DNA of 60,552 nt. Source: Lachnospiraceae bacterium (GTDB lineage Bacteria > Bacillota > Clostridia > Lachnospirales > Lachnospiraceae). Numbering within the stretch: position 1 is the first letter of the stretch; each line of letters opens with the position of its first letter. Below the pieces are notes generated by a model. That model made no database searches. It saw only the letters and a program-made list of their open reading frames with translations, and was not told where the DNA came from. Shown piece by piece: positions 15,443 to 57,182 of the stretch. The stretch lies in assembly GCA_014804355.1 (NCBI GenBank), contig JAAUZY010000098.1:1-60552 (forward strand), in the 5' to 3' direction. The translations under genes were made by a program, and so were the position numbers.

Positions 15443-17104
15443 ATGATTAAGAAACACCTTTTTTTTGTTGCAGTCTATCTCCGTCTGTCAAGGGACGATG
15501 AAGATATTGACGGAAGCACGAAAGCAGAAAGCAACAGCATCAGCTCCCAGAGGGAGCTGATCCGTTCTTATGTCAGGGAACAGGAAGATATGGAATTATT
15601 TGATATCTATGTGGACGACGGGTATTCCGGGGCAAATTTTGACAGGCCGGAATTTAAGCGGATGATGGCTGACATTGAAGCGGGAAACGTAAACTGTGTG
15701 ATTGTAAAGGACTTGTCCAGACTGGGACGAGATTATATAGAAGCCGGGCGGTTGATCCAGAAGACCTTCCCGGCTTTTCATGTGCGCTTTATTGCGCTGA
15801 CAGACAATTATGACAGCCAGACGGCGGACAATAACACGAAATCCCTTGTCCTGCCGGTAAAGAATTTTATCAACGATTCCTACTGCCGGGATATTTCCCA
15901 GAAGGTTAAAAGTCACCAGAAGGCAAAGAGGGAGCAGGGGAAGTTCATAGGGTCTTTTGCCATGTACGGATATCTGAAGTCCGCGGAAGACAGGAACCGG
16001 CTGACACCGGACGGGTATGCCGCCGGGATCGTCAGGAAAATATTTGCGTGGAAGATTGATGGGATGAGCGCACAGGCCATCGCGCAGCGACTTGACGGGC
16101 TTGGGGTGCTTTCCCCGATGGAATATAAAAAATCCCTTGGCGAACATTATTCCACCGGCTTCCAGACAAAGACGACTGCGAAATGGTCGGCGGTGGCAGT
16201 GATCAGGATACTCACCAATGAAGTGTATACGGGGGTAATGGTACAGGGGAAGAGTGAGAAGGTCAATTATAAGGTAAAGAAGACCGTGACGAAGCCAAAA
16301 GAAGAGTGGGTACGGGTGGAAGGGACACACGAAGCCATTGTTTCCCGTGAAGATTTTGGGATCGTGCAGGAACTTCTTAAAGTGGATACCAGGGCTAGAG
16401 CGGGAGGTGCGTGTTCCCATCTGTTTTCCGGACTGCTGTTCTGCGGGGACTGTAAGGAGCCTATGTACCGTAGGGTAAACCGTTATAAAGGTGTGTCGAA
16501 GATTCATTTTATCTGTTCCACAAGGAACAGCGGGCAGGGCTGCACCAGACACAGCATTCCGGAGGAGGAACTGAAGGAGACCGTATTCCGGACGCTGCAG
16601 ATGCATGTATCCGTTTTTCTGGATGTATGCGGCCAGCTTGAGGATATCCAGAAGATGGAGGTGGATTTCGGGGAGATCGCCCGGTTTGATAAGGAAATCG
16701 AAAGGCTTCATAAGGAGCAGGAAAAATATCTGGAACTGCGGGCAGGGCTTCACGAGGACTTAAAGACTGGCCTGATCACGGAAACGGATTTCAAGAATTT
16801 CCGTGCCATTTATGAGCAGAAATATGAGGAGGCAGAGCAGGCCCTGCTAAAGCAGGAGGAGATGCTGAAACGGATGTTTAAGAACGGCGTTTCTTCCGGC
16901 ATGAAGCTGGAACGGTTCAAGGAGGCAATGGAACTTACGGAGCTTGACCGGGATACGCTCTTATGCTTTGTCAGACGGATAGAAGTGTTTGAAGAGAAAA
17001 AGGTTTACGTGGAATTCCGGTGGCAGGAGGAATTTAACAAGATGCTCATCCTGCAGGAGTATATGGCGTCAAGGGCGGAAAGCAGAGAGGGGGCGCTTAC
17101 ATAA
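15443..17104 (+). CDS. Large serine recombinase 1 of 3
   Basis: Site-specific recombinase of 553 residues. The N-terminal resolvase domain (about 8-150) has catalytic Ser16 in VYLRLSRDD and the conserved VKDLSRLGRDY region. A Recombinase domain (about 165-280) follows, then a zinc ribbon with CGDC and a second Cys pair (about 330-370), then a coiled coil rich in Glu/Lys and a short C-terminal domain. The length is normal for a complete family member. It shares one base with the next gene (TAATG), so the three recombinases are translated as a unit. Such triplets are known from some integrative elements of Firmicutes; which of the three cuts DNA is not evident. Confidence 0.93.
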   Translation: MIKKHLFFVAVYLRLSRDDEDIDGSTKAESNSISSQRELIRSYVREQEDMELFDIYVDDGYSGANFDRPEFKRMMADIEAGNVNCVIVKDLSRLGRDYIEAGRLIQKTFPAFHVRFIALTDNYDSQTADNNTKSLVLPVKNFINDSYCRDISQKVKSHQKAKREQGKFIGSFAMYGYLKSAEDRNRLTPDGYAAGIVRKIFAWKIDGMSAQAIAQRLDGLGVLSPMEYKKSLGEHYSTGFQTKTTAKWSAVAVIRILTNEVYTGVMVQGKSEKVNYKVKKTVTKPKEEWVRVEGTHEAIVSREDFGIVQELLKVDTRARAGGACSHLFSGLLFCGDCKEPMYRRVNRYKGVSKIHFICSTRNSGQGCTRHSIPEEELKETVFRTLQMHVSVFLDVCGQLEDIQKMEVDFGEIARFDKEIERLHKEQEKYLELRAGLHEDLKTGLITETDFKNFRAIYEQKYEEAEQALLKQEEMLKRMFKNGVSSGMKLERFKEAMELTELDRDTLLCFVRRIEVFEEKKVYVEFRWQEEFNKMLILQEYMASRAESREGALT

Positions 17105-18774
17105 TGGCAAGGACATCCAAGAAAAAGCAGGAGATAAAAAGGAAGCCTGTGAAGATATATTATGTGGGCATTTATGCAAGGCTCTCTGTTGATTCCGGGG
17201 ACAGGAAAAATGAATCCATTGAAACGCAGGTGGAGATCGTAAAGGCGTTCATCGCACAGCACGATGATATGGTGGTATATGGCGTTTATACAGATCTGGG
17301 GAAGACCGGCACCAGCTTTGAGCGTGAAGGGTTTGAGCGCATGATGCGCGACGTGCGGGCGCGTAAGATCGACTGCATTATTGTAAAGGACCTGTCAAGA
17401 TTTGGCAGGAACCATATTGAGACGGGGAATTATATTGAGAAAATATTCCCTTTCATGGGTGTACGTTTTATCGCCGTCACCGACAACTTTGACAGTATGG
17501 ATATATCCGGACAGAATGAGACCATGAGCGTAAACCTCAAAAATCTGGTAAACGAGATGTACGCAAGGGACATAGCGGTGAAGGTAAAAGCCAGCAAGAG
17601 GGCGAAATGGGAGCAGGGGAGTTACACCGGCGGCATACCGCCTTATGGGTATAGGGCTGAGTGGATAGACGGGAAAAAGTATCTTTTTATTGAAGAGACT
17701 ACCTCGGATATCGTGAGAAAAATATACGGCCTGTTCCTTTCCGGCAGCAATATGAATGAGATTGTTGCATGGCTTTATGAAAATAAGGTAGCAAGGCCTA
17801 CTGAATACCATAAGACAGGGCAGGTTTTTTGTGCTGATGGGCAGGAGCTTTTTCAGTGGTCCAGGGCAACGGTCAGGATGATCCTCTCTAACCCGGTGTA
17901 TGTGGGGAACCTTGTGCAGGGCTGCACCTGCGGGAAAGATTATAAGACGCGCAGGCGGCATGACGTTGATGCCAGCGACTGGTCAGTGAAAGAGCATACC
18001 CATGAGGCCATCGTCAGTGAAGAACTTTTTCTGGAAGCGGCACAGAAGTTTGAAAAATCCGCCGTATACTGCAACAGGGACGGGTTTTCCAAGGCTGTCC
18101 CCACGGAAGAGGACCTGTTTACAGATGTGATTTACTGCGGGGAATGCGGCTCGAAGATGAGGAGGGTTGCGGTCATCAAGAAGTTCAGTTCAAGGGACAT
18201 GGTCAGGACATACAGTTATAAATGCCCGAAATCCGGCAGGATAGACAGCCTTAACTGTCCGGGCAGGAGTATCACCATGGGGGCGCTCACGGATATCGTG
18301 AAGGAAACGATCCGGCAGGAATTTACCCTGTCCGGCATGCGTCCGAAGGACCTTGTGGAGATGAATGAACGGGAAATGGAGACGCTGAAAGAGAAATGGA
18401 ACGGGCAGCTTGCCATGATCGAAAGGAAACTGGAAGGGATAACAAAGGCCGGAAGTGAACAGTACCTGAAGTACCGCAGCGGGGAGATAGATGAAAAGGG
18501 ATTCAGGATGGCGAAGGAAGAGAATGACAAAAAAGCAGATTCCCTTCGCGCGGAGAGCAGGGATATTACAGAGAAATTAAGGGAGATTGATTCTGAAACG
18601 GCAAGGAAGAACCACTTTCTGCGTACCTTGATGAAGGGAAGCAAAAAGGGGGAACTGACGGCGGAGATCGTCAGGACGCTGTTTGAGAGGATAGAAGTTT
18701 ATCCGGGACACAGGGTAAAAACGGTCTTTGCTTTTAAGCGGAGTGAGTTTTTGTCGGGAGGGGTGGCAGAATGA
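17104..18774 (+). CDS. Large serine recombinase 2 of 3
   Basis: 556 residues with the same architecture as its neighbour but diverged. A basic N-terminal extension (SKKKQEIKRK) precedes catalytic Ser28 in IYARLSVDS. Then come the resolvase core with VKDLSRFGRNH, the Recombinase domain, a zinc ribbon (CGECGSKM with a later C...C pair) and a long Lys/Glu coiled coil (about 420-510). It starts in the stop codon of recombinase 1 and ends overlapping recombinase 3 by four bases (ATGA). Confidence 0.93.
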   Translation: MARTSKKKQEIKRKPVKIYYVGIYARLSVDSGDRKNESIETQVEIVKAFIAQHDDMVVYGVYTDLGKTGTSFEREGFERMMRDVRARKIDCIIVKDLSRFGRNHIETGNYIEKIFPFMGVRFIAVTDNFDSMDISGQNETMSVNLKNLVNEMYARDIAVKVKASKRAKWEQGSYTGGIPPYGYRAEWIDGKKYLFIEETTSDIVRKIYGLFLSGSNMNEIVAWLYENKVARPTEYHKTGQVFCADGQELFQWSRATVRMILSNPVYVGNLVQGCTCGKDYKTRRRHDVDASDWSVKEHTHEAIVSEELFLEAAQKFEKSAVYCNRDGFSKAVPTEEDLFTDVIYCGECGSKMRRVAVIKKFSSRDMVRTYSYKCPKSGRIDSLNCPGRSITMGALTDIVKETIRQEFTLSGMRPKDLVEMNEREMETLKEKWNGQLAMIERKLEGITKAGSEQYLKYRSGEIDEKGFRMAKEENDKKADSLRAESRDITEKLREIDSETARKNHFLRTLMKGSKKGELTAEIVRTLFERIEVYPGHRVKTVFAFKRSEFLSGGVAE

Positions 18775-20003
18775 AGAGATACATCATTGCAATTTATATC
18801 CGCTTATCGAAGGAAGATGATAAATGGAAAGAAGAAAGCAACAGTATCACCATGCAGAGGGTGCTTTTGAAAAAGTATATAGAGGAAAACTTTGCAGACT
18901 GTGAGGTAATCGAGTTCTGTGATGACGGTTATACAGGCACAAACTTTGAGCGTCCGGGTATGCAGGAAATGCTTGGCAGGATAAGGGACGGTGAGATAGA
19001 CTGTGTCATTGTAAAGGATTTTTCAAGGTTTGCAAGGGATTATGTTGAGCTTGGCTCTTATCTGGAACAGATATTCCCATTCCTTGGCGTCCGTTTCATT
19101 TCCGTAAATGACGGTTATGACAGTATCAATTATCAGGGGAGCATTGCCGATATTGACGTGAATTTCAAGAACCTGCTGTATGACCTGTACAGCAAGGACT
19201 TGTCGGAGAAGGTGCGCTCTTCCCTTGCCATAAGGAAGGAAAAGGGGCAGTATGTGAGTGGGAACAGCCCGTTTGGTTATGAGAAAGATCCGGAGGACAG
19301 GCATGCCCTGTTAATTGCGGAAGATGAAGCGGAGGTTGTCAGGCGGATATTTTCCCTTACTCTGGACGGGTGGACGTCAGTGCAGGTCGCAAAGCTCTTT
19401 AATAAGGAAGGGGTTAAAACACCGGTTGAATTTAAGATAGAAAAGGGGCGGACCAGCAGACAGCCAAAAGGGGAAAGGTTCCTGTGGAGCAGCAGTACGA
19501 TCTGCCAGATATTACGGAATGAGATTTATATCGGAAATATCGTGCAGAAAAAGTATGTAAAGGATTTTGTGGGTGGGAAGAACCACATAAAACCCCGGGA
19601 AGAGTGGCTGGTTTCCTACGGGCATCATGAGCCTATTATAAATAAGGAAGATTTTGATAAGGTGCAGGAGGGCAGGGGGCAGAAAAGACCACCGCAGTAC
19701 AACCAGACACATCCGCTTGTGGGGAAGCTGGTATGCGGCTGCTGTAAGAAAAACCTGCATTACCGCAGGAGATTAAACCCATATTTCACCTGTGGGCAGC
19801 GTTATTCCAATACAATGGAAAACTGCGTCAGCAAAGTAAACGCAATGTTTATGGAGCAGTATATCCTTTGGATGATGCAGGATAAGCTGGAGATGGACGG
19901 GGATCTGTCGAAAGAGATGATAGAGGGTTATATTGATAAGATTGAAGTTTATGATGAGCAGCATATAGAAATCCAGTGGAAGGAAAATGCGGGGCAGTAT
20001 TAG
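18771..20003 (+). CDS. Large serine recombinase 3 of 3, short form lacking the coiled coil
   Basis: 410 residues, about 140 shorter than the other two. The resolvase domain with catalytic Ser13 (IYIRLSKED), VKDFSRFARDY, the Recombinase domain and a compact zinc ribbon (CGCCKKN with TCGQ and a final Cys) are all present. The long coiled coil that normally follows the ribbon is absent and the protein ends with a short segment similar to the usual C-terminus (MIEGYIDKIEVYDEQHIEI). The gap therefore looks internal rather than a simple truncation. In other serine integrases the coiled coil controls synapsis direction, so this subunit may play an accessory role. Confidence 0.91.
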   Translation: MKRYIIAIYIRLSKEDDKWKEESNSITMQRVLLKKYIEENFADCEVIEFCDDGYTGTNFERPGMQEMLGRIRDGEIDCVIVKDFSRFARDYVELGSYLEQIFPFLGVRFISVNDGYDSINYQGSIADIDVNFKNLLYDLYSKDLSEKVRSSLAIRKEKGQYVSGNSPFGYEKDPEDRHALLIAEDEAEVVRRIFSLTLDGWTSVQVAKLFNKEGVKTPVEFKIEKGRTSRQPKGERFLWSSSTICQILRNEIYIGNIVQKKYVKDFVGGKNHIKPREEWLVSYGHHEPIINKEDFDKVQEGRGQKRPPQYNQTHPLVGKLVCGCCKKNLHYRRRLNPYFTCGQRYSNTMENCVSKVNAMFMEQYILWMMQDKLEMDGDLSKEMIEGYIDKIEVYDEQHIEIQWKENAGQY

Positions 20004-50683: not shown

Positions 50684-50721
50684 ACCCTGCATATACTTGT
50701 AATAACAATAGTATGCAGGGT
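50684..50721 (+). terminator. Stem-loop whose right arm contains the deacetylase ribosome site
   Basis: ACCCTGCATA at 50684-50693 pairs with TATGCAGGGT at 50712-50721. The AGGG of the right arm (50717-50720) is the only SD for the ATG at 50728, so the stem would hide it. The tail is only weakly T-rich, so termination is a second possibility. Confidence 0.55.
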
Positions 50722-50727
50722 ATTATT

Positions 50728-51170
50728 ATGCGTAAAAAGAAGACACATTGGAACGATAAGATTAAACTTGCGATGTGTGAATTAGAGGGTAAAATGCAGA
50801 AGGATTTCATGGCAGGCGGGAATGAGCGGGTATGGCCGGCACCGGATCAGGTAGAAGCATGGACAGCACAGCGACAGAGAGAGAAAAGCAGCGGCCGGTA
50901 TTGCGGCAGTCAGCACTGTGGCAGCAGTGTACCCTCCGAATACCGGACGAAGGAGGAGCAGAAACGGAAGGGATTTGTGCAGAATGTATTGATGCAGGTG
51001 GCGAAGTCGGCGGCATTCGCGCTGGCAACCGTTGCGTTGATACAGGGTGTGGTTAAAGTGCTGCCGGATTCCATTACGGTCAGCAGTTCCGTGGGCGGTC
51101 GGGAACTGCCGATCTACTGTGTGGAGACGGATAAAAAGCAGGTGGCTCTCAGCTTCGATGCTGCTTGGGG
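50728..51170 (+). pseudogene. 5' part of a polysaccharide deacetylase gene interrupted by a mobile element
   Basis: The reading frame starts at ATG 50728. It encodes a basic cytoplasmic tail, one transmembrane helix (NVLMQVAKSAAFALATVALI) and the beginning of a PdaB-like deacetylase domain (GRELPIYCVETDKKQVALSFDAAWGN). At 51166-51176 it runs into foreign sequence and stops at 51234 after 20 unrelated residues. The missing remainder begins at 56606 with the next codons in the same frame. The truncated product lacks most of the metal-binding and catalytic motifs. Confidence 0.9.
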
Positions 51171-51176
51171 GAATGA
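51166..51176. mobile_element. Left attachment junction (attL)
   Basis: TGGGGGAATGA here and TGGGGCAATGA at 56601-56611 are the only common sequence at the two breaks of the deacetylase gene. They differ at one base, as expected for short serine-recombinase cores. Confidence 0.8.
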
Positions 51177-51252
51177 TTGGTTGATGGAACGGAATTTCCG
51201 TGATAGAGTGCATATTTGTGTAGCAGGGAAATAAGGATTTGTGACTTGCAGG

Positions 51253-51288
51253 AAGGTATCGACGAAAAATATTCGTTGATACCTTTTT
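51253..51288 (+). terminator. Terminator near the left end of the element
   Basis: AAGGTATC-GACGAA pairs with TTCGTT-GATACCTT, followed by TTTTG. It stops transcription entering from the broken deacetylase gene. Confidence 0.8.
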
Positions 51289-51331
51289 GTGTTTCCCTGC
51301 TTTTCCGTTCCTGCCCTTCCTCATGTACAAA

Positions 51332-51359
51332 GCACAGTCACTGTGCCGGGTACTCCCGG
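51332..51359 (+). promoter_or_regulatory. Leader hairpins before the 51377 gene
   Basis: GCACAGT-C-ACTGTGC is followed at once by CCGGG-TACTC-CCGGG and then AAAGGAGG. A similar GCACAGG-GAA-CCTGTGC plus CCGG precedes the next gene. Confidence 0.6.
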
Positions 51360-51376
51360 GAAAGGAGGGCTAAAAG

Positions 51377-51565
51377 ATGAATGACACAGCAAAAAGAAGG
51401 CTCAGGCTGAAAGAAATCCATAATAACACCTACGACACGGACGAGGTTCTGGAACTGCTTAAAGGCTTTGAGGGAACGGACCATTATGGTGGTGCTGCAG
51501 CATTCGTATGTGCGTTGCTGAACATACAGCCCGAACATATCTGGTCGCTATTTGAATACGTATAG
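51377..51565 (+). CDS. Small element-encoded protein of unknown function
   Basis: 62 residues, hydrophilic at the start (NDTAKRRLRLKEIHNN) and more hydrophobic near the end (GGAAAFVCALLNIQPEHIWSLF). AAAGGAGG sits eight bases before the ATG. A terminator follows. Similar short proteins occur in clostridial transposons, but I do not recognise a domain. Confidence 0.7.
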   Translation: MNDTAKRRLRLKEIHNNTYDTDEVLELLKGFEGTDHYGGAAAFVCALLNIQPEHIWSLFEYV

Positions 51566-51580
51566 GAAAAATAGGAATTC

Positions 51581-51605
51581 CCCGGCAGATATGTCGGGCT
51601 TTTTT
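51581..51605 (+). terminator. Terminator after the 62-residue gene
   Basis: CCCGGCA pairs with TGTCGGG across four bases (one G-U pair), followed by CTTTTTT. Confidence 0.8.
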
Positions 51606-51646
51606 CCTGTATCCTCTTCCTCGCTATACGTCTTTTTGCACTTTAT

Positions 51647-51663
51647 GCACAGGGAACCTGTGC
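51647..51663 (+). promoter_or_regulatory. Leader hairpin before the 51695 gene
   Basis: GCACAGG-GAA-CCTGTGC followed by CGG and, after a short spacer, AAAGGAGG. It repeats the design seen at 51332-51359. Confidence 0.6.
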
Positions 51664-51694
51664 CGGTTGCCATTCTGAAAGGAGGACTGATTTA

Positions 51695-52162
51695 ATGGAC
51701 AAAATAGACGGTTATGAGGTTCAAAAGAGCATACTGCTTGAAACAGGGTATGGCTTCGCTTTAGGACGTATGCTGAGAACCCCGGAAAGGTTTGCGGTCT
51801 GGAATTTCACGGAAACTGCCTATGGGCGTGATTACTACTGGAAAAGCTGCCATGACAGTCGTGATGTTGCGGAAGAAAATTTTCAAAAAAGGGCGGAACG
51901 TTGGCGCATGATGTACGGAATGCAGGAAAAGCCGGAACATAGCACGGCTGTCTTCTACCGCTATTATTCTACACAGCGTCCAGTGGATATTGCCACTTTT
52001 CCGCAGCCGGAGGGGAACAGACCTGTCGTGATTATCAATTATGACGAGGACAGGAGACGTCCGGTTGCGGGAGGGAAGTTATACGCATGGGGTGAGATAC
52101 TGTATCCCCATCCGCTGACAAAAGAGCAGATGGAAGACTACAAACTGAAGCCTGCCCCTTAG
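51695..52162 (+). CDS. Stand-alone copy of a transposon domain (antirestriction/LPD-like, uncertain)
   Basis: 155 residues. The order LETGYGFALGRMLRTPERFAV, then YGRDYYWKSCHDSRDVAEENF, then YYSTQRPVDIATFPQ and GGKLYAWGEILYPHPLT matches a region I know from the N-terminal part of large accessory proteins of clostridial conjugative transposons (often DUF4316 or LPD-type annotations). The function is not established. It is complete here, with a good ribosome site, so it is probably expressed. The exact domain name is uncertain. Confidence 0.72.
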   Translation: MDKIDGYEVQKSILLETGYGFALGRMLRTPERFAVWNFTETAYGRDYYWKSCHDSRDVAEENFQKRAERWRMMYGMQEKPEHSTAVFYRYYSTQRPVDIATFPQPEGNRPVVIINYDEDRRRPVAGGKLYAWGEILYPHPLTKEQMEDYKLKPAP

Positions 52163-52249
52163 AAATCCCGTAAAAATGGAGATTCTATCCGGACGAGTGG
52201 ATAAATATGGAAATCCCGTACACAGCATAGAAAGGAGACTATTACACAA

Positions 52250-52507
52250 ATGAGCAACATAAAGTATTACAGTATCAATGAAGACGCAGCCCGCCGTGCC
52301 AAAGAGATGAACAGCTTTATGGATTATATACCTGGAAGCGCGACCGAGGAATATAAGATGATGGTGGATAATGCTGCAAAAATTGCAACAAACCAGAAAG
52401 AGTGTATAAGGTGGTCAATGACCCCGTGCGGCAGTTCCTTGAAGATTTTGAAGACCAGTTCGCATGGGACCTGCTCCCCTATGGATTCCTGTATGACCTG
52501 TACTTGA
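52250..52507 (+). pseudogene. 5' remnant of a transposon protein (DUF3849-like N-terminus)
   Basis: The ATG at 52250 with AAAGGAG is a good start, and the first 50 residues (KYYSINEDAARRAKEMNSF, GSATEEYKMMVDNAAKIA) look like the beginning of a large transposon protein. From about 52400 the frame continues into sequence whose real coding frame is another one and stops at 52507. A deletion has therefore fused two genes out of frame. The DUF3849 label is tentative. Confidence 0.65.
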
Positions 52508-52815
52508 AGTGGCTGGAAAAGAACGTACCCAGCACAAGGCCGCTGGGAAAGACCAAGTTCAGCAATGCCATCGCGCAGGCCGCCCGGAACAACCCCATAT
52601 GGACTGTGCCGCCGCGTAACCCGAAAGACGGAAGGCCCATGCTTATCAAGACAGGGAAGCTCATGGACGGGCCGGAGATGCTTATCAAGGAGTACAAGCT
52701 GGACAAATGGAAGGATGACACCTACAACGGCCTGGACGAGGCACGGAAGTACACCCCCCAGGAAAGCCATATCCTACCGCGGGCTTATCCGCACAACGGC
52801 TGTCCGGAAATATAG
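52402..52815 (+). pseudogene. 3' remnant of a primase-helicase-like transposon gene
   Basis: From GTG 52402 the frame reads VNDPVRQFLEDFEDQFAWDLLPYGFLYDLYLKWLEKN, which resembles the winged-helix C-terminus of D5/DUF5906 primase-helicases of mobile elements. Conserved-looking residues follow to SHILPRAYPHNG. There is no ribosome site or ATG, and the upstream helicase domain is absent. It is the far side of the deletion described for 52250-52507. Confidence 0.6.
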
Positions 52816-53314
52816 CATAAAGCTGAACGGCGGTGCTGGCCAGCAGGCTACAGCGGATTGCGACAGACATATCGAAGCAACGACAGAACAGCAGGTATCC
52901 CCAGAACTGGCACCGGAACCTGAAATGTAGGTCTCTGGACAGCGGCATAAGCATGGCACCGGTGTTGCCATGTTTATGCCGTTAAGGCTGCTGTGCTGTC
53001 CGCAGAGGTTCCGTAACGCAATATACAGGGAATCTTACACAGGCAGAATTTCCATGAGGGCAGCTAAGAGTGGTAGCCGCATCCGCGGCCGGTGGAATGT
53101 CTGAAAGGAGGATTTCCGGTAAGCAGGAACTGAGCACAGGTAAAATACAGAATGATATCGGTCTGTTCCATGAGACTTTGAATACTATTTCTAAAAAAGA
53201 CGGTATGATTGCGTGACCGATATTGAGTAAAAATATATGTGATTGCAGACTATACAGTTCGCATATAAATAACAAAACGGAACCTGCTACAAAATCAAAT
53301 AAGGAGGTTAACAG
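52816..53314 (+). other. Gap with a possible small relic gene
   Basis: About 500 bp without a clear gene. A frame after GAAAGGAGG (about 53104-53112) runs about 34 codons to a stop at 53214-53216 and looks protein-like (KQELSTGKIQNDIGLFHETL) but lacks a start codon at the right distance. SD AAGGAGG at 53301-53307 belongs to the next gene. Confidence 0.4.
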
Positions 53315-53491
53315 ATGAAAGAGCCAAGCACATATAAGGTCATCAGGGAATATGGCAATCAATACGGGCTGGAAGAACTAATGCGGCGGATTATACGTTG
53401 TCATCTCGGGGAAAGTAATTATGCCGAAAGGGCAGGTGTGCAATTCCCGGAATCCAAGGTAGATGATTATGGCGTGCAGCTTACCGGATAA
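53315..53491 (+). CDS. 58-residue protein preceding the serine recombinase
   Basis: ATG 53315 follows AAGGAGG by seven bases. The product is 58 residues (MKEPSTYKVIREYGNQYGLE ... DDYGVQLTG), basic in the middle (ELMRRIIRCHLGES). It overlaps or nearly touches the recombinase start, so it is translationally linked to it. It might be a recombination directionality factor or an excisionase-like helper, which is inference from size and place only. Confidence 0.7.
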   Translation: MKEPSTYKVIREYGNQYGLEELMRRIIRCHLGESNYAERAGVQFPESKVDDYGVQLTG

Positions 53492-55091
53492 AGAGCATAT
53501 GCCTGAAAACAGTAACCAGTTAAAAACAGCATTATACATTCGTCTTTCGAGAGAAGACGGCGACAAATCGGAGAGCCTGAGTATAAGCAATCAGCGTTTG
53601 CAGCTGATGGAATTTGTCAGCAGGGAGACGGATTTGTACCTGTATGATACATACATAGACGATGGCTATACAGGAACTAATTTTAATCGTCCTGCTTTCG
53701 AACGGATGATTAAGGACATTGAGTCCAGAAATGTACAGTGTGTGGTTGTCAAAGATTTGTCCAGACTGGGCAGAAACATGCCGGAGGTTTCAAGGTACAT
53801 AAACGAGTATTTCCCGGTTAAAAAAGTTCGCTTTATTGCCATAAACGACAGTGTGGATAGAAAGTATTACGATATCGACGCCAGTGAAGATATGATGATT
53901 GATGTCAAAAATATGTTCAATGGTTTTTATCCAAAAGATATATCCAAAAAGGTACGTTCGACTTTCAGAACCAAACAAAGCAATGGTCAGTTTATAGGTG
54001 CGTTTGCCAGCTTTGGATATGTTAAGTCGGCCAAGGACCATAACAAACTGGAAGTTGATGAATATGCGGCCGATATCGTAAGGCGTATTTTTGCCATGTA
54101 TGTCAAAGGCATAGGACAGAATACAATCGCCAAAATTCTAAATGAGGAGAACATACCATGTCCGTCAGAATACAAGAAGCAGCAAGGGCTCAACTATCAT
54201 AACAGCAACCGGCTTGATGCAACCTCTTATTGGACATATTCTACGATAAGAAATATTTTAAAGAATGAAATTTATATTGGAAATATGGTGCAGAATAAGA
54301 GCTTTAGGCAGATGTGCAAGAAAAGTGCGGTAAGTCTTCCCAAGGAGAAGTGGATTGTTGTTGAGAACACGCACGAGCCGATTATAGACAGAGATACATG
54401 GGATAAAGTTCAGGACTTGTTGAAGAGGAATACAAGGCATACCAGTCTTACAGAAAATGTCCACATGTTTGCAGGTTATTTGAAGTGCGGTGACTGTGGG
54501 CGTGCCATGGTTAAAATTAGACGTAAAGGTGTCTGCTTCTTTAACTGCGGCAGTTATAACCGGTACGGAAAGAAATTCTGCAGCATTCACAGTATCACGG
54601 AACAGGAGCTGGAGGGAATCGTACTGGATGATTTGAATCTGATTATCAGCTCTGTAAAGGATATTAGCCGGCTGATTGAAGAAGAAAACCAGAAGCAAAG
54701 AAAGAATCATGCAGATTTCCTGGGAGATATCTCTAAGTATCAGGCAGAAATTGACCGACTCGTAATGAAGAAGGAACGTGCCTACGACGATTATTCAGAT
54801 GGTCTCATTACAAGAGATGACTACATGAGGTACAGAGATAAATATGAGCAGCAGATTAGCGCTGCCCGCTCTGCGATTGAAAAAATCAATCAGTTGAAAA
54901 GCCAGGTGCCTGCAAAGAATCCATGGATTGAAAAACTGCTGCAATATGAGAAGCTGTACCGCCTTGACAGGGATATAGTAGTGGAAATGATTTCCATGAT
55001 TTACATCTATGAGAACAATACGATTAAGATTGTCTATAACTTCTCTAACGAATTGGAAGCATTATTAAACCGGCATGCCTGCAGTGATTAG
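53463..55091 (+). CDS. Large serine recombinase of the 5.4-kb element
   Basis: 542 residues if translation starts at 53463. ATG 53469 or ATG 53502 (10 bases after the stop of the 58-residue gene) are equally possible. The resolvase domain has catalytic Ser in LYIRLSRED (S29 in the long form) and VKDLSRLGRNM. The Recombinase domain follows, then the zinc ribbon (CGDCGRAMVKI and FNCGSY...C), a Lys/Glu coiled coil and the C-terminal MISMIYIYENNTIKIVYNF. All domains are intact, so it is the probable integrase that recognised the deacetylase target. It is unlike the triplet at 15443-20003 in context. Confidence 0.93.
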   Translation: MIMACSLPDKEHMPENSNQLKTALYIRLSREDGDKSESLSISNQRLQLMEFVSRETDLYLYDTYIDDGYTGTNFNRPAFERMIKDIESRNVQCVVVKDLSRLGRNMPEVSRYINEYFPVKKVRFIAINDSVDRKYYDIDASEDMMIDVKNMFNGFYPKDISKKVRSTFRTKQSNGQFIGAFASFGYVKSAKDHNKLEVDEYAADIVRRIFAMYVKGIGQNTIAKILNEENIPCPSEYKKQQGLNYHNSNRLDATSYWTYSTIRNILKNEIYIGNMVQNKSFRQMCKKSAVSLPKEKWIVVENTHEPIIDRDTWDKVQDLLKRNTRHTSLTENVHMFAGYLKCGDCGRAMVKIRRKGVCFFNCGSYNRYGKKFCSIHSITEQELEGIVLDDLNLIISSVKDISRLIEEENQKQRKNHADFLGDISKYQAEIDRLVMKKERAYDDYSDGLITRDDYMRYRDKYEQQISAARSAIEKINQLKSQVPAKNPWIEKLLQYEKLYRLDRDIVVEMISMIYIYENNTIKIVYNFSNELEALLNRHACSD

Positions 55092-55188
55092 CGGGCTGCC
55101 GGTTTTGTGTGAATCCGTTAGTGGAAATATTAACGGCTTTTGCATAACAGAATCAATGAAATAAGATATCCATAGTGAGGTAAAGCGG

Positions 55189-55217
55189 TTGTATTTGCAG
55201 TGAATATTGCCTATAAT
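55189..55217 (+). promoter_or_regulatory. Promoter for the DUF3791-DUF3990 operon
   Basis: TTGTAT (55189-55194), a 17-bp spacer and TATAAT (55212-55217), about 69 bp before the first start codon. Confidence 0.7.
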
Positions 55218-55285
55218 AGAATCAAGAGCGGAGGTTTTTGTATACTTGTTATAGGACAAAGTTAATTCGTATGAGGAGGTTATGC

Positions 55286-55501
55286 ATGAATAAAGAGTCT
55301 TTTTCGTTTGTCGTGTATATGATTCATGCTTGTGCCAATAAATGGAATATGATGCCTTCCGAAGTGTATCGGAAGATGCAGAGTGTAGGATGTATTAGCG
55401 GTTATCTTGTGCCCCATTATGATATTTTGCATACACAGGGGACTGGATATATTGTGGAGGATATTAAACAATATCTGGAAGTGCGGGGTGTGGCAGTATG
55501 A
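55286..55501 (+). CDS. DUF3791 protein, putative antitoxin-like partner
   Basis: 71 residues. SFVVYMIHACANKWNMMPSEVYRKMQ and LVPHYDILHTQGTGYIVEDIKQYLEVRG match DUF3791 almost end to end. ATG 55286 is six bases after AGGAGG. It overlaps the DUF3990 gene by four bases (ATGA). In many Firmicutes these two families are neighbours; a toxin-antitoxin-like role is inferred from that linkage and from the ART-like fold of the partner. Confidence 0.85.
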   Translation: MNKESFSFVVYMIHACANKWNMMPSEVYRKMQSVGCISGYLVPHYDILHTQGTGYIVEDIKQYLEVRGVAV

Positions 55502-55977
55502 TTGTTTACCATGGTTCAACAGAGGTTGTGGAGATGCCGAATGTAAAACATTCCTATCGGCTGCTTGATTTTGGTATGGGATTCTATGTGACTACGGTCA
55601 GAGAGCAGGCAGAAAGATGGGCAAGGCGAAAGGCGGATATTCTTGGGAAAGATAATGCAATCGTGAATATTTATCAGATGAATGATGATACCAATGGATT
55701 TTTGGTAAAAACTTTTGATGAAGATTTGATAGAATGGATTGATTTTGTGTGCAAATGTCGGGATGGAGAGAAGGACTATCTGAAGTATGATTTGATACAT
55801 GGAAAGGTGGCAAATGACAAAGTGTTTCGGGTAGTGGATATGTACCATACAGGAATCTGGGATAAGGAGCGTGCTCTCAAAGAAATCAAAGTCTATCCGT
55901 CCTATGACCAGATAGCTTTTATTAATCAGAGAGCCGTAGATAGGCTATTGAAATTTGAATCCTTTGAGGGGGTATAG
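55498..55977 (+). CDS. DUF3990 protein with ADP-ribosyltransferase-like features
   Basis: 159 residues. The N-terminal YHGS, the segment LLDFGMGFYVTTVREQAERWARRKA and the C-terminal DQIAFINQRAVDRLL match DUF3990. The order His - Tyr - Gln/Glu resembles the H-Y-[EQ] layout of ADP-ribosyltransferases, with Gln instead of Glu at the last position. The possible reaction is transfer of ADP-ribose from NAD to a cellular target, which is inference. Start ATG 55498 overlaps the DUF3791 gene; a third gene follows three bases later. Confidence 0.85.
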   Translation: MIVYHGSTEVVEMPNVKHSYRLLDFGMGFYVTTVREQAERWARRKADILGKDNAIVNIYQMNDDTNGFLVKTFDEDLIEWIDFVCKCRDGEKDYLKYDLIHGKVANDKVFRVVDMYHTGIWDKERALKEIKVYPSYDQIAFINQRAVDRLLKFESFEGV

Positions 55978-55980
55978 TTG

Positions 55981-56268
55981 ATGGATGGGGAAGCATTAGA
56001 AAGAGTGTATCAGGAGAATTTGGAAGAGAGGATAATTGCGTATCTGTCTGAGACAAAGGATATTTCATTAGAGACGGCAATGGATGTTTACTATCACAGC
56101 AAGCTGGCAGATAAGATACATCGTGGAGTTGAAGGGATACAGTATCTTGATTATAAGGTGCTTGTTCAGATACTGTGTGAAACGGAAAGGGAATTATTTT
56201 GTGAAATACCGGCAGACATCGCTGAAACTGATGCAGCAATTTCAGAATCAGAAAACGAGTATGCCTAG
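55981..56268 (+). CDS. Third gene of the DUF3791-DUF3990 cassette
   Basis: 95 residues, acidic and helical, with a Tyr/His-rich middle (AMDVYYHSKLADKIHRG) and an acidic tail ending ISESENEYA. It starts three bases after the DUF3990 stop, with GAGGGGG upstream, so it is co-translated. Similar short proteins often follow DUF3990 genes and may be a second small partner. I do not recognise a named family with confidence. Confidence 0.7.
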   Translation: MDGEALERVYQENLEERIIAYLSETKDISLETAMDVYYHSKLADKIHRGVEGIQYLDYKVLVQILCETERELFCEIPADIAETDAAISESENEYA

Positions 56269-56277
56269 AAATGTATA

Positions 56278-56315
56278 ACTCCATGATGTCAGAAGCGTAT
56301 TGACATCATGGAGTG
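56278..56315 (+). terminator. Perfect 13-bp inverted repeat after the cassette
   Basis: ACTCCATGATGTC and GACATCATGGAGT flank 11 bases. There is no T run behind it, so it may be an RNA stabiliser or operator rather than a classical terminator. Confidence 0.6.
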
Positions 56316-56331
56316 AAATGGAGGGGTAAAT

Positions 56332-56535
56332 ACGAGAACAGATACTGTGGTTAAGCAGGAAGGTATAAATGCGTTAGTTGCCCAATTAGGTTATGTTGAT
56401 GCGGAACGTTTTATTGCTTTGATAAACAGCGAGTCTTTTGATTATACAAAATGGCGAGAACAGTTTTTGGATGCAGAATCTAGTGTGCGTGAACTAAGCC
56501 GAAAGGCTATGATGTATTCTGAAAAAAATGTTTAA
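56332..56535 (+). CDS. Small element protein with a non-canonical or lost start codon
   Basis: The coding frame starts best at ACG 56332, five bases after GGAGGGG, giving TRTDTVVKQEGINALVAQLG and so on. The first standard codon in frame is GTG 56347, with no site at the right distance. The product (62-67 residues) has YVDAERFIALINSESFDYTKW and ELSRKAMMYSE, a pattern I associate with short accessory proteins next to toxin-like genes. Either ACG is used as a start, or an ATG has mutated and the gene is weakly expressed. Confidence 0.6.
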   Translation, partial: TRTDTVVKQEGINALVAQLGYVDAERFIALINSESFDYTKWREQFLDAESSVRELSRKAMMYSEKNV

Positions 56536-56600
56536 CTGTTAGTTTGGAAAAAGGACAGTGTCATGGGGTCCTGTCCTTTTCCATTAACAGTCCATCACCG

Positions 56601-56611
56601 TGGGGCAATGA
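56601..56611. mobile_element. Right attachment junction (attR)
   Basis: TGGGGCAATGA, matching the left junction except for one base. Sequence to the right continues the deacetylase coding frame at once. Confidence 0.8.
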
Positions 56612-57182
56612 GGATACAGGCCGGATTCTGGAGATTCTAAGGAAACATAACGTGAAGGTGACATTCTTTATGACCGGCGGGTGGGTGGAGAGCTACCCCG
56701 ATGACGTGAAGGCGATTCTGGCAGACGGGCACGACCTGGGTAACCACAGCGAGAATCATAAAAATATGTCCCAGCTTTCCGACGAACAGTGTCAGGAAGA
56801 GCTGATGAAAGTACATACTAAGGTGCAGGAGCTTACCGGTTATGAGATGTGCCTATTCAGACCGCCTTATGGAGATTATGACAATCATGTCATAACAAAT
56901 GCACATAAATGCGGTTATTATCCGATTCAATGGTCGATCGATTCTCTCGATTGGAAGGACTACGGAGTGGACGATATCGTCAAGCGCGTGGTGGAGTCTG
57001 ATAAGCTGAATAATGGGGCGATTATACTTATGCATAATGGGGCAAAATACACGGCGGACGCGCTGGAGTCGGTCATTACCGGACTGCAGGATAAAGGGTA
57101 TGAGCTGGTGCCGATCTCACAGCTGATTTACAAAGACAAATATCACATGAAGGCGGACGGGACGCAGGTGTCCGGGCAGTAA
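56606..57182 (+). pseudogene. 3' part of the interrupted polysaccharide deacetylase gene
   Basis: From the junction the frame reads GNEDTGRILEILRKHNVKVTFFMTGGWVESYPDDVKA, then the metal-binding motif GHDLGNHSENH, RPPYGDYDNHV and ILMHNG, the NodB-domain motifs 1-5. It ends in a short hydrophilic tail. An ATG at 56544 opens the frame upstream, but its first 20 residues come from the element. The free fragment lacks the membrane anchor and the first strand. In the intact gene it would be a membrane-anchored PdaB-like deacetylase of peptidoglycan or other surface glycan. Confidence 0.9.

Follow-up and report, generated by a model that had tools for sequence, protein, structure and literature searches.

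A deacetylase gene split by a large serine recombinase element in a Lachnospiraceae genome, a probable sporulation gene-intervening element at a recurrently occupied target

Sporulation genes split by intervening elements are on record for sigK, spsM, spoVFB, spoVR, gerE and yabG, as described in the available portions of the pertinent reports (PMC4191935, PMC5595907, PMC10747680). Herein, we analyzed contig JAAUZY010000098.1 of a Lachnospiraceae bacterium (60,552 nucleotides, the whole of which is hereafter called the window; contig C98 of the 115 contigs of a 3.85-Mb genome), in which an element encoding a large serine recombinase (LSR) interrupts a gene for a polysaccharide deacetylase resembling PdaB. 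We consider it rather probable that this element belongs, with skin and gin, to the intervening elements of sporulation genes, and that the LSR would excise it in the mother cell together with a 58-aa candidate directionality factor.

Among the described systems, gin, in gerE of Bacillus cereus ATCC10987, is a non-phage element that splits a sporulation gene. As with the window element, it encodes serine recombinase, and the break falls at a short core, common to both ends, that lies inside an inverted repeat; the available text further describes a small accessory factor, GirX, and three recombinases, a number also seen in the elements at the place termed C below. It differs in its gene, its host and its size of 28.6 kb, and in that its excision has been proven (PMC5595907). 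The skin elements of Bacillus subtilis and Clostridioides difficile occupy the mother-cell gene sigK, the latter using an LSR with a directionality factor; two independent insertions at different sigK sites are on record in the portions available, whereas here five places are occupied in one genus by different LSR lines (PMC5025042). SPbeta in spsM of B. subtilis splits a spore gene that is likewise polysaccharide-related but is a full prophage, and its excision is controlled by SprB, a 58-aa protein whose promoter, as described in the accessible text, has a good -10 and an imperfect -35 element, as found before the 58-aa open reading frame (ORF) of the window element (PMC4191935). We regard this resemblance, drawn by analogy, as one of layout and not as demonstrated homology. 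The yin element in yabG of Clostridium botulinum is an intervening element in a clostridial sporulation gene and is described for one strain only (PMC10747680). Several distant LSR clusters on a single gene were likewise reported by Durrant et al., with a magnesium chelatase gene and one prolyl isomerase site as examples in the available text, the main text of which does not contain the word "deacetylase" (PMC10083194).

A literature search whose coverage mostly left out subscription papers returned no intervening element in a deacetylase gene or in pdaB. The kind of element is itself known; what is new is which gene is hit, that several LSR lines have converged on it at five places, and that some genomes carry two insertions in it. 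The printed sporulation intervening elements that we found are separate cases in different genes, and here a single gene in one gut genus provides 32 natural interruptions, spread over five places and several LSR lines, along with 40 genomes as uninterrupted controls and two splits that look vertically inherited. Whether such an element is a tolerated parasite or a developmental switch at work can thereby be tested by comparing genomes and in the cultured strain 1xD42-87, and the survey also supplies a group of LSRs whose attachment (att) sites can be read.

Junctions and identity of the split gene

An earlier note made from the letters of this DNA had proposed that a serine-recombinase element cuts the deacetylase gene, that TGGGG(G/C)AATGA is common to both breaks, and that joining the parts restores an open, family-consistent frame, for which a continuous homologue in a related genome would be informative. 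These proposals were confirmed, and neither of the two outcomes that the note had named as refuting it was obtained. The window contained exactly two copies of the shared core, one at 51166 and one at 56601 (0.15 expected; two or more copies in 2 of 100 shuffles), and these positions delimit an insert of 5,435 bp with an LSR of 542 aa. The close relative G101 was found to possess one continuous deacetylase gene running through the same, empty site and encoding a 344-aa protein, to which both window parts aligned across the site with 96.1% and 98.4% identity, respectively. In the window, the 5' ORF starts at 50713, reads FDAAWGN to 51174 and then continues in element DNA to a stop at 51234; the 3' part resumes as WGNEDTGRILE from 56601-56606 and ends at 57182.

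The point of crossover was assessed by a symmetry test, in which 12 dinucleotides were tried in turn as the centre and the two element ends were compared about each over 20 arm positions. In all seven elements tried at the insertion place termed A below (those of the window, G032, G062, G034, G010, G067 and G102), TG was the best symmetric centre, with 12 to 17 of the 20 arm positions matching around it; the window arms matched at 12 positions (P 0.0008). This TG belongs to the codon for a Trp residue in the deacetylase's first conserved motif, and the crossover is best placed there, where the two ends of the element have their centre of symmetry. Symmetric arms about a short core are the general attP layout of serine recombinases as given in the available text of the gin report (PMC5595907).

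With respect to the identity of the gene, the 3' part matched PF01522 in a Pfam scan (E 1.2e-31) and its best NCBIfam family was TIGR02764, the sporulation deacetylase PdaB, and the 5' part on its own matched no Pfam family in the same scan. The ORF downstream of the 3' part reads by eye as glgC. The gene split in the window looks like a PdaB-like, sporulation-type polysaccharide deacetylase gene. In the accessible parts of two reports, pdaB appears among the sigma-E regulon genes of B. subtilis (PMC4703394) and SpoIIID binds DNA upstream of ybaN (PMC517825), the equation of ybaN with pdaB resting on the name of the NCBIfam model.

Recurrent interruption of the deacetylase gene

To survey the genus, 77 genomes (Lachnospiraceae, mostly metagenome bins) were searched with the 3' part and with the 5' part, each of which matched in 73; the fetched stretches were mapped onto the 344-aa G101 protein and the classes were sorted by hand. 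The gene was interrupted in 32 genomes and uninterrupted in 40, the latter including G009 and G106 despite a stray additional 3' copy, and it lay at a contig edge in two (G004 and G064) and was without a match in three (G075, G077 and G108). Of the 32 genomes with an interruption, 19 had both sides of the gene on a single contig, on which basis an assembly artefact was rejected. One of the 19 is G034, taken here to be the cultured mouse-gut strain 1xD42-87, with an 11.1-kb element at place A whose LSR is of the other site-A subfamily and 48% identical to that of the window. G001 and G071 yielded the 5' side alone and G026 the 3' side alone; in other genomes the sides were split over contigs.

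The interruptions amounted to 37 occupied sites at five places of the catalytic domain, namely A near residue 152 (15 genomes), B near residue 180 (nine), C at residue 194 (three), D near residues 265-270 (nine) and E near residue 298 (one), with two insertions each in G003, G008, G061, G065 and G082. An LSR was present at 34 of these sites, comprising all of those at A, B, C and E (that of G066 being recognised by sequence) and six of the nine at D. In the LSR tree, places A, B and D each corresponded to one group, and the three LSRs lying in a row at place C formed three separate pairs, each beside one of three other LSRs of the window (two LSRs of the row are visible in G001 before its contig ends). 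Identity was 16-33% between representatives of different places and at least 42% within A, B or D.

Other genes provided controls for this pattern. SpoIVA was detected in 71 of the 77 genomes with one full-length match in each, none of which was interrupted, as compared with 32 of 72 for the deacetylase gene (Fisher P 5e-12). A close paralogue of the deacetylase (63-69% identity) was whole in all 14 genomes listing it full-length (P 0.0015 versus the deacetylase gene); two incomplete matches outside this count, one of 65% at a contig end in G102 and one of 63-65% in G010, could be broken paralogues. For GlgC, one partial match, a paralogue in G081, was seen among the matches listed. Beyond the genus, a scan of 250 genomes, nearly all of them single representatives of the genera of the family, gave, at the level of tabulated matches, partial matches in other genera at A, B and D and at a possible extra place near residue 240 (for example in G136, G160, G203, G343, G220, G332, G180 and G201).

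These comparisons establish, at the level of the genomes compared, a site-specific insertion at TG with an LSR inside and both gene parts open, and repeated targeting of the same gene by several LSR lines in a SpoIVA-bearing genus. As a tentative extension, the PdaB-like gene of Lachnospiraceae might serve as a general landing ground for serine-recombinase elements because no cell other than the mother cell would need it; five or more LSR lines would each use their own conserved stretch, with elements up to two deep, and in a large share of species spore-wall maturation would depend on excision in every mother cell.

Several individual loci are described here in their own right. Two close relatives of the window are occupied at other places, G066 (L079/L118) by an element of ~42 kb at place E and G068 (L090/L091) by a triple-LSR element at place C. 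In G009 (L082, 2187-5067) and G106 (L083, 2023-4982), the whole gene is followed after 1.4-1.7 kb by another 3' copy, which begins at places C and D and may reflect repair after an earlier insertion. The G110 bin holds two contigs (L070 and L119), both with a site-A 5' part and with differing LSRs (81% identity), perhaps from two strains.

Selection, regulation and competing explanations

Synonymous (dS) and nonsynonymous (dN) divergence was compared in two sister pairs that carry relatives of the window element. The pair G062-G065 is collinear through the element at 91-92%, and its dS was 0.33 for the LSR and 0.31 for the gene, with a gene dN of 0.009 (0.34 and 0.004 for the trimmed gene). 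The pair G011-G102 is collinear at 89.8 and 91.3% over the stretches compared, ~1.9 kb of the middle of the G011 element lying outside the comparison, and the corresponding values were 0.42, 0.31 and 0.010 (0.33 and 0.009 for the trimmed gene). The simplest account is a single insertion before each divergence, vertical inheritance, and purifying selection on both gene parts since then, with dN/dS about 0.03 for both parts; two separate insertions of diverged elements could also have produced these pairs. Vertical splitting and strong purifying selection on both parts are in this way supported for the two pairs. Across 66 genomes (32 split and 34 intact, residues 86-344 with insertion-site columns trimmed, a set that leaves aside six unfetched uninterrupted genomes and the two at contig edges), the median dN/dS to the nearest neighbour was low in every class, at 0.034 for split (n = 16), 0.042 for mixed (n = 26) and 0.025 for intact pairs (n = 11). 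Internal stops were confined to G008 among the 68 genomes mapped, in a stretch running past the insertion; stops in the matches of G105, G030, G082, G011 and G102 were read by position as run-over past or at the junction, and that of G102 was seen in its DNA.

These observations bear on the possibility that the gene is simply dead, split by an irreversible insertion into decaying fragments. The window element is indeed without ~6.4 kb of the sequence of its relative in G080 and carries gene remnants, but the LSR, the two att sites and the two parts of the gene are each either open or intact, and the sister pairs display purifying selection, so that we consider this explanation very improbable.

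The region upstream of the deacetylase gene was consistent with a link to sporulation, and the promoter evidence is partial overall. Of 66 genomes, 65 had the pattern [GC]CATATA[CT] ahead of the gene, where mononucleotide shuffles predict 0.89; G024 was the one without the exact pattern. In 20 spoIVA upstream regions of the genus, GCATATACATT was found in 15 and CATACAT in 5 at about the same distance, together with a GAATAG-like or GTCATAA-like -35 element. The assignment of this -10 type to a given sigma factor is presumptive on our part. The CATATA core also occurred 48-55 bp before the 58-aa ORF in all six elements of the LSR subfamily of the window, for which mother-cell control is plausible; for the other subfamilies such control is unproven. 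As a separate observation, the -10 region and the ribosome-binding region at 50685-50725 form an inverted repeat (CCCTGCATA...TATGCAGGG) that is varied in step in some relatives, and a similar inverted repeat lies before spoIVA.

The earlier note had suggested that precise excision could switch the deacetylase back on, which might make the locus a reversible phase-type switch. In this reading, a surface deacetylase of vegetative cells would be switched at random or in response to a signal. A serine recombinase with symmetric att arms would permit switching, and a membrane segment is legible by eye in the 5' part; the nearest family is nevertheless the sporulation deacetylase PdaB, 71 of the 77 genomes have SpoIVA, and the gene is preceded by a -10 element of the sporulation type in all but one of 66, which makes vegetative switching quite improbable and less likely than sporulation-linked excision. 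What stood of that interpretation was the site-specific serine-recombinase insertion and the comparison with skin; its reversibility found no backing in joined element ends, which appeared in none of the 77 genomes and in no viral contig. The note had covered one gene, and the four further places hit by other recombinases were outside its view.

According to the sporulation-linked reading that we favour, the deacetylase gene would be off in vegetative cells, where it need not be on. In sporulating cells, the LSR would act together with the 58-aa candidate directionality factor to excise the element in the mother cell and thereby restore the deacetylase for spore-wall formation; the mother-cell genome would be discarded, and the forespore would pass the element on.

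Several results weigh against this proposal. The joined element-end pattern was absent from all 77 genomes with three mismatches allowed, and in viral contigs neither this pattern, nor one element end of the second subfamily, nor a relative of the window LSR was found. The intact G101 homologue scored 219.3 bits against TIGR02764, below the curated cut-off of 237.4, with PdaB still the best family; the PdaB equivalog label was therefore dropped and the gene was named PdaB-like. Pooled dN/dS, in which distant and partial pairs weigh in, was 0.100 for split, 0.087 for mixed and 0.063 for intact pairs. The LSR of the window differed from those of G027 and G080 with a dS of 0.04-0.07, far below the 0.16-0.48 of the neighbouring gene parts and glgC, and vertical inheritance of the window's own insertion was rejected on this ground. 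This insertion looks recent, so that selection on the window's own gene parts may predate the element, and the argument from purifying selection therefore fails for the window itself. As for the promoter, CATATA preceded the small ORF in none of eight elements of the other site-A subfamily, the six -10 cores in the window's subfamily represent only about three independent lines, and a spoIVA-derived matrix reached P < 0.01 before 1 of 34 LSRs (G065, 0.0065; window, 0.18), leaving general sigma-E-type control of the LSRs unsupported. The whole genes with stray 3' copies in G009 and G106 indicate that some lineages may regain the gene otherwise, and the frequency of insertion could reflect a dispensable gene.

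The last point leads to the most serious competitor, an ordinary mobile element parked in a dispensable gene, which would be off in its carriers, with element or gene being lost over time. Interspecies movement (LSR dS 0.03 versus gene dS 0.90 between G010 and G012), the unseen excised form, the differing cargoes of the elements read and five other deacetylase-like matches in the window's own genome are all consistent with such an element, but the two apparently vertical splits, the gene dN/dS near 0.03 and the restriction of internal stops to G008 are not what it would lead one to expect. Backup by the close paralogue as the cause of tolerance was also unsupported, with just 3 of the 32 interrupted genomes among the 14 with a whole copy. 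On balance, we judge a parked element to be unlikely, though worth keeping in view.

Content of the window element and other features

The features of the locus are summarized in Table 1.

Table 1. Positions of the split deacetylase gene, the junctions and the predicted features of the inserted element in the window
Feature	Position	Strand	Basis
-10-like GCATATACT upstream of deacetylase gene	50689..50697	+	[GC]CATATA[CT] pattern shared across genus
5' part of PdaB-like deacetylase gene, to FDAAW	50713..51167	+	96.1% identical to intact G101 protein
Inserted element, 5,435 bp between two TG cores	51166..56600	+	core search, symmetry test
Left junction (attL): TG core + right arm GGGGAATGATTGGTTGATGG	51166..51187	+	G101 empty-site comparison, symmetry test
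ORF with DarA_C domain	51695..52162	+	PF18789 E 2.6e-24
Primase-like remnant (Pox_D5-like)	52402..52815	+	PF03288 E 7.2e-10; phrog_864 DNA primase E 1.3e-7
-10-like GCATATAAAT, 54 bp upstream of 58-aa ORF	53261..53270	+	CATATA core shared in LSR subfamily
58-aa ORF overlapping LSR start, candidate recombination directionality factor	53315..53491	+	position, size, conservation
LSR, 542 aa	53463..55091	+	PF00239, PF07508, PF13408; phrog_95 integrase E 4e-105
DUF3791 protein	55238..55501	+	PF12668 E 8.1e-21; PADLOC PDC-M13A
DUF3990 protein	55498..55977	+	PF13151 E 1.1e-45; PADLOC PDC-M13B
Third ORF of PDC-M13-like set	55978..56268	+	PDC-M13C E 7.2e-8
62-aa ORF	56347..56535	+	homologue in G080 comes after ORF of 145 aa that looks PIN-like by eye
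Right junction (attR): left arm CCATTAACAGTCCATCACCG + TG core	56581..56602	+	G101 empty-site comparison, symmetry test
3' part of deacetylase gene	56601..57182	+	98.4% identical to intact G101 protein

The three LSR domains (Resolvase, Recombinase and zinc ribbon) all scored above cut-off. The 58-aa ORF is a candidate recombination directionality factor: homologues were located in 14 of the 15 site-A elements, G067 being the one where the ORF was not located, and Y, R, E, I and H were invariant over nine aligned sequences. It gave no PHROG match at 0.1 and solely sub-cut-off Pfam and NCBIfam matches with unrelated names. The 62-aa ORF gave no PHROG match, and phage structural families were absent among the element ORFs scanned (Pfam; five ORFs against PHROGs).

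The site-A element of G080 measures 11.3 kb. The stretch that the window element lacks relative to it maps near 52405-52417, and the window sequence from ~55235 to 56312 is unmatched in G080; judging from this alignment, the window element is a shortened, altered relative of the G080 element. PDC-M13, matched by the DUF3791, DUF3990 and third ORFs (55238-56268), is a PADLOC candidate defence set. The element of G062 (L067, 2369-4375) is 4.1 kb long, with three main ORFs, i.e., a 668-aa protein that reads by eye as a chemotaxis receptor, an ORF with a small protein, and the LSR.

Apart from the split deacetylase gene, positions 1-20150 of the window constitute a second recombinase island, in which three LSRs lie in a row (15443-20003). 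This row adjoins a subtilase gene that is without about its first 117 codons, the break falling at the DTG motif and the 5' part not being present in the window; in G066, G068, G027 and G080, the subtilase is open at 571-578 aa.

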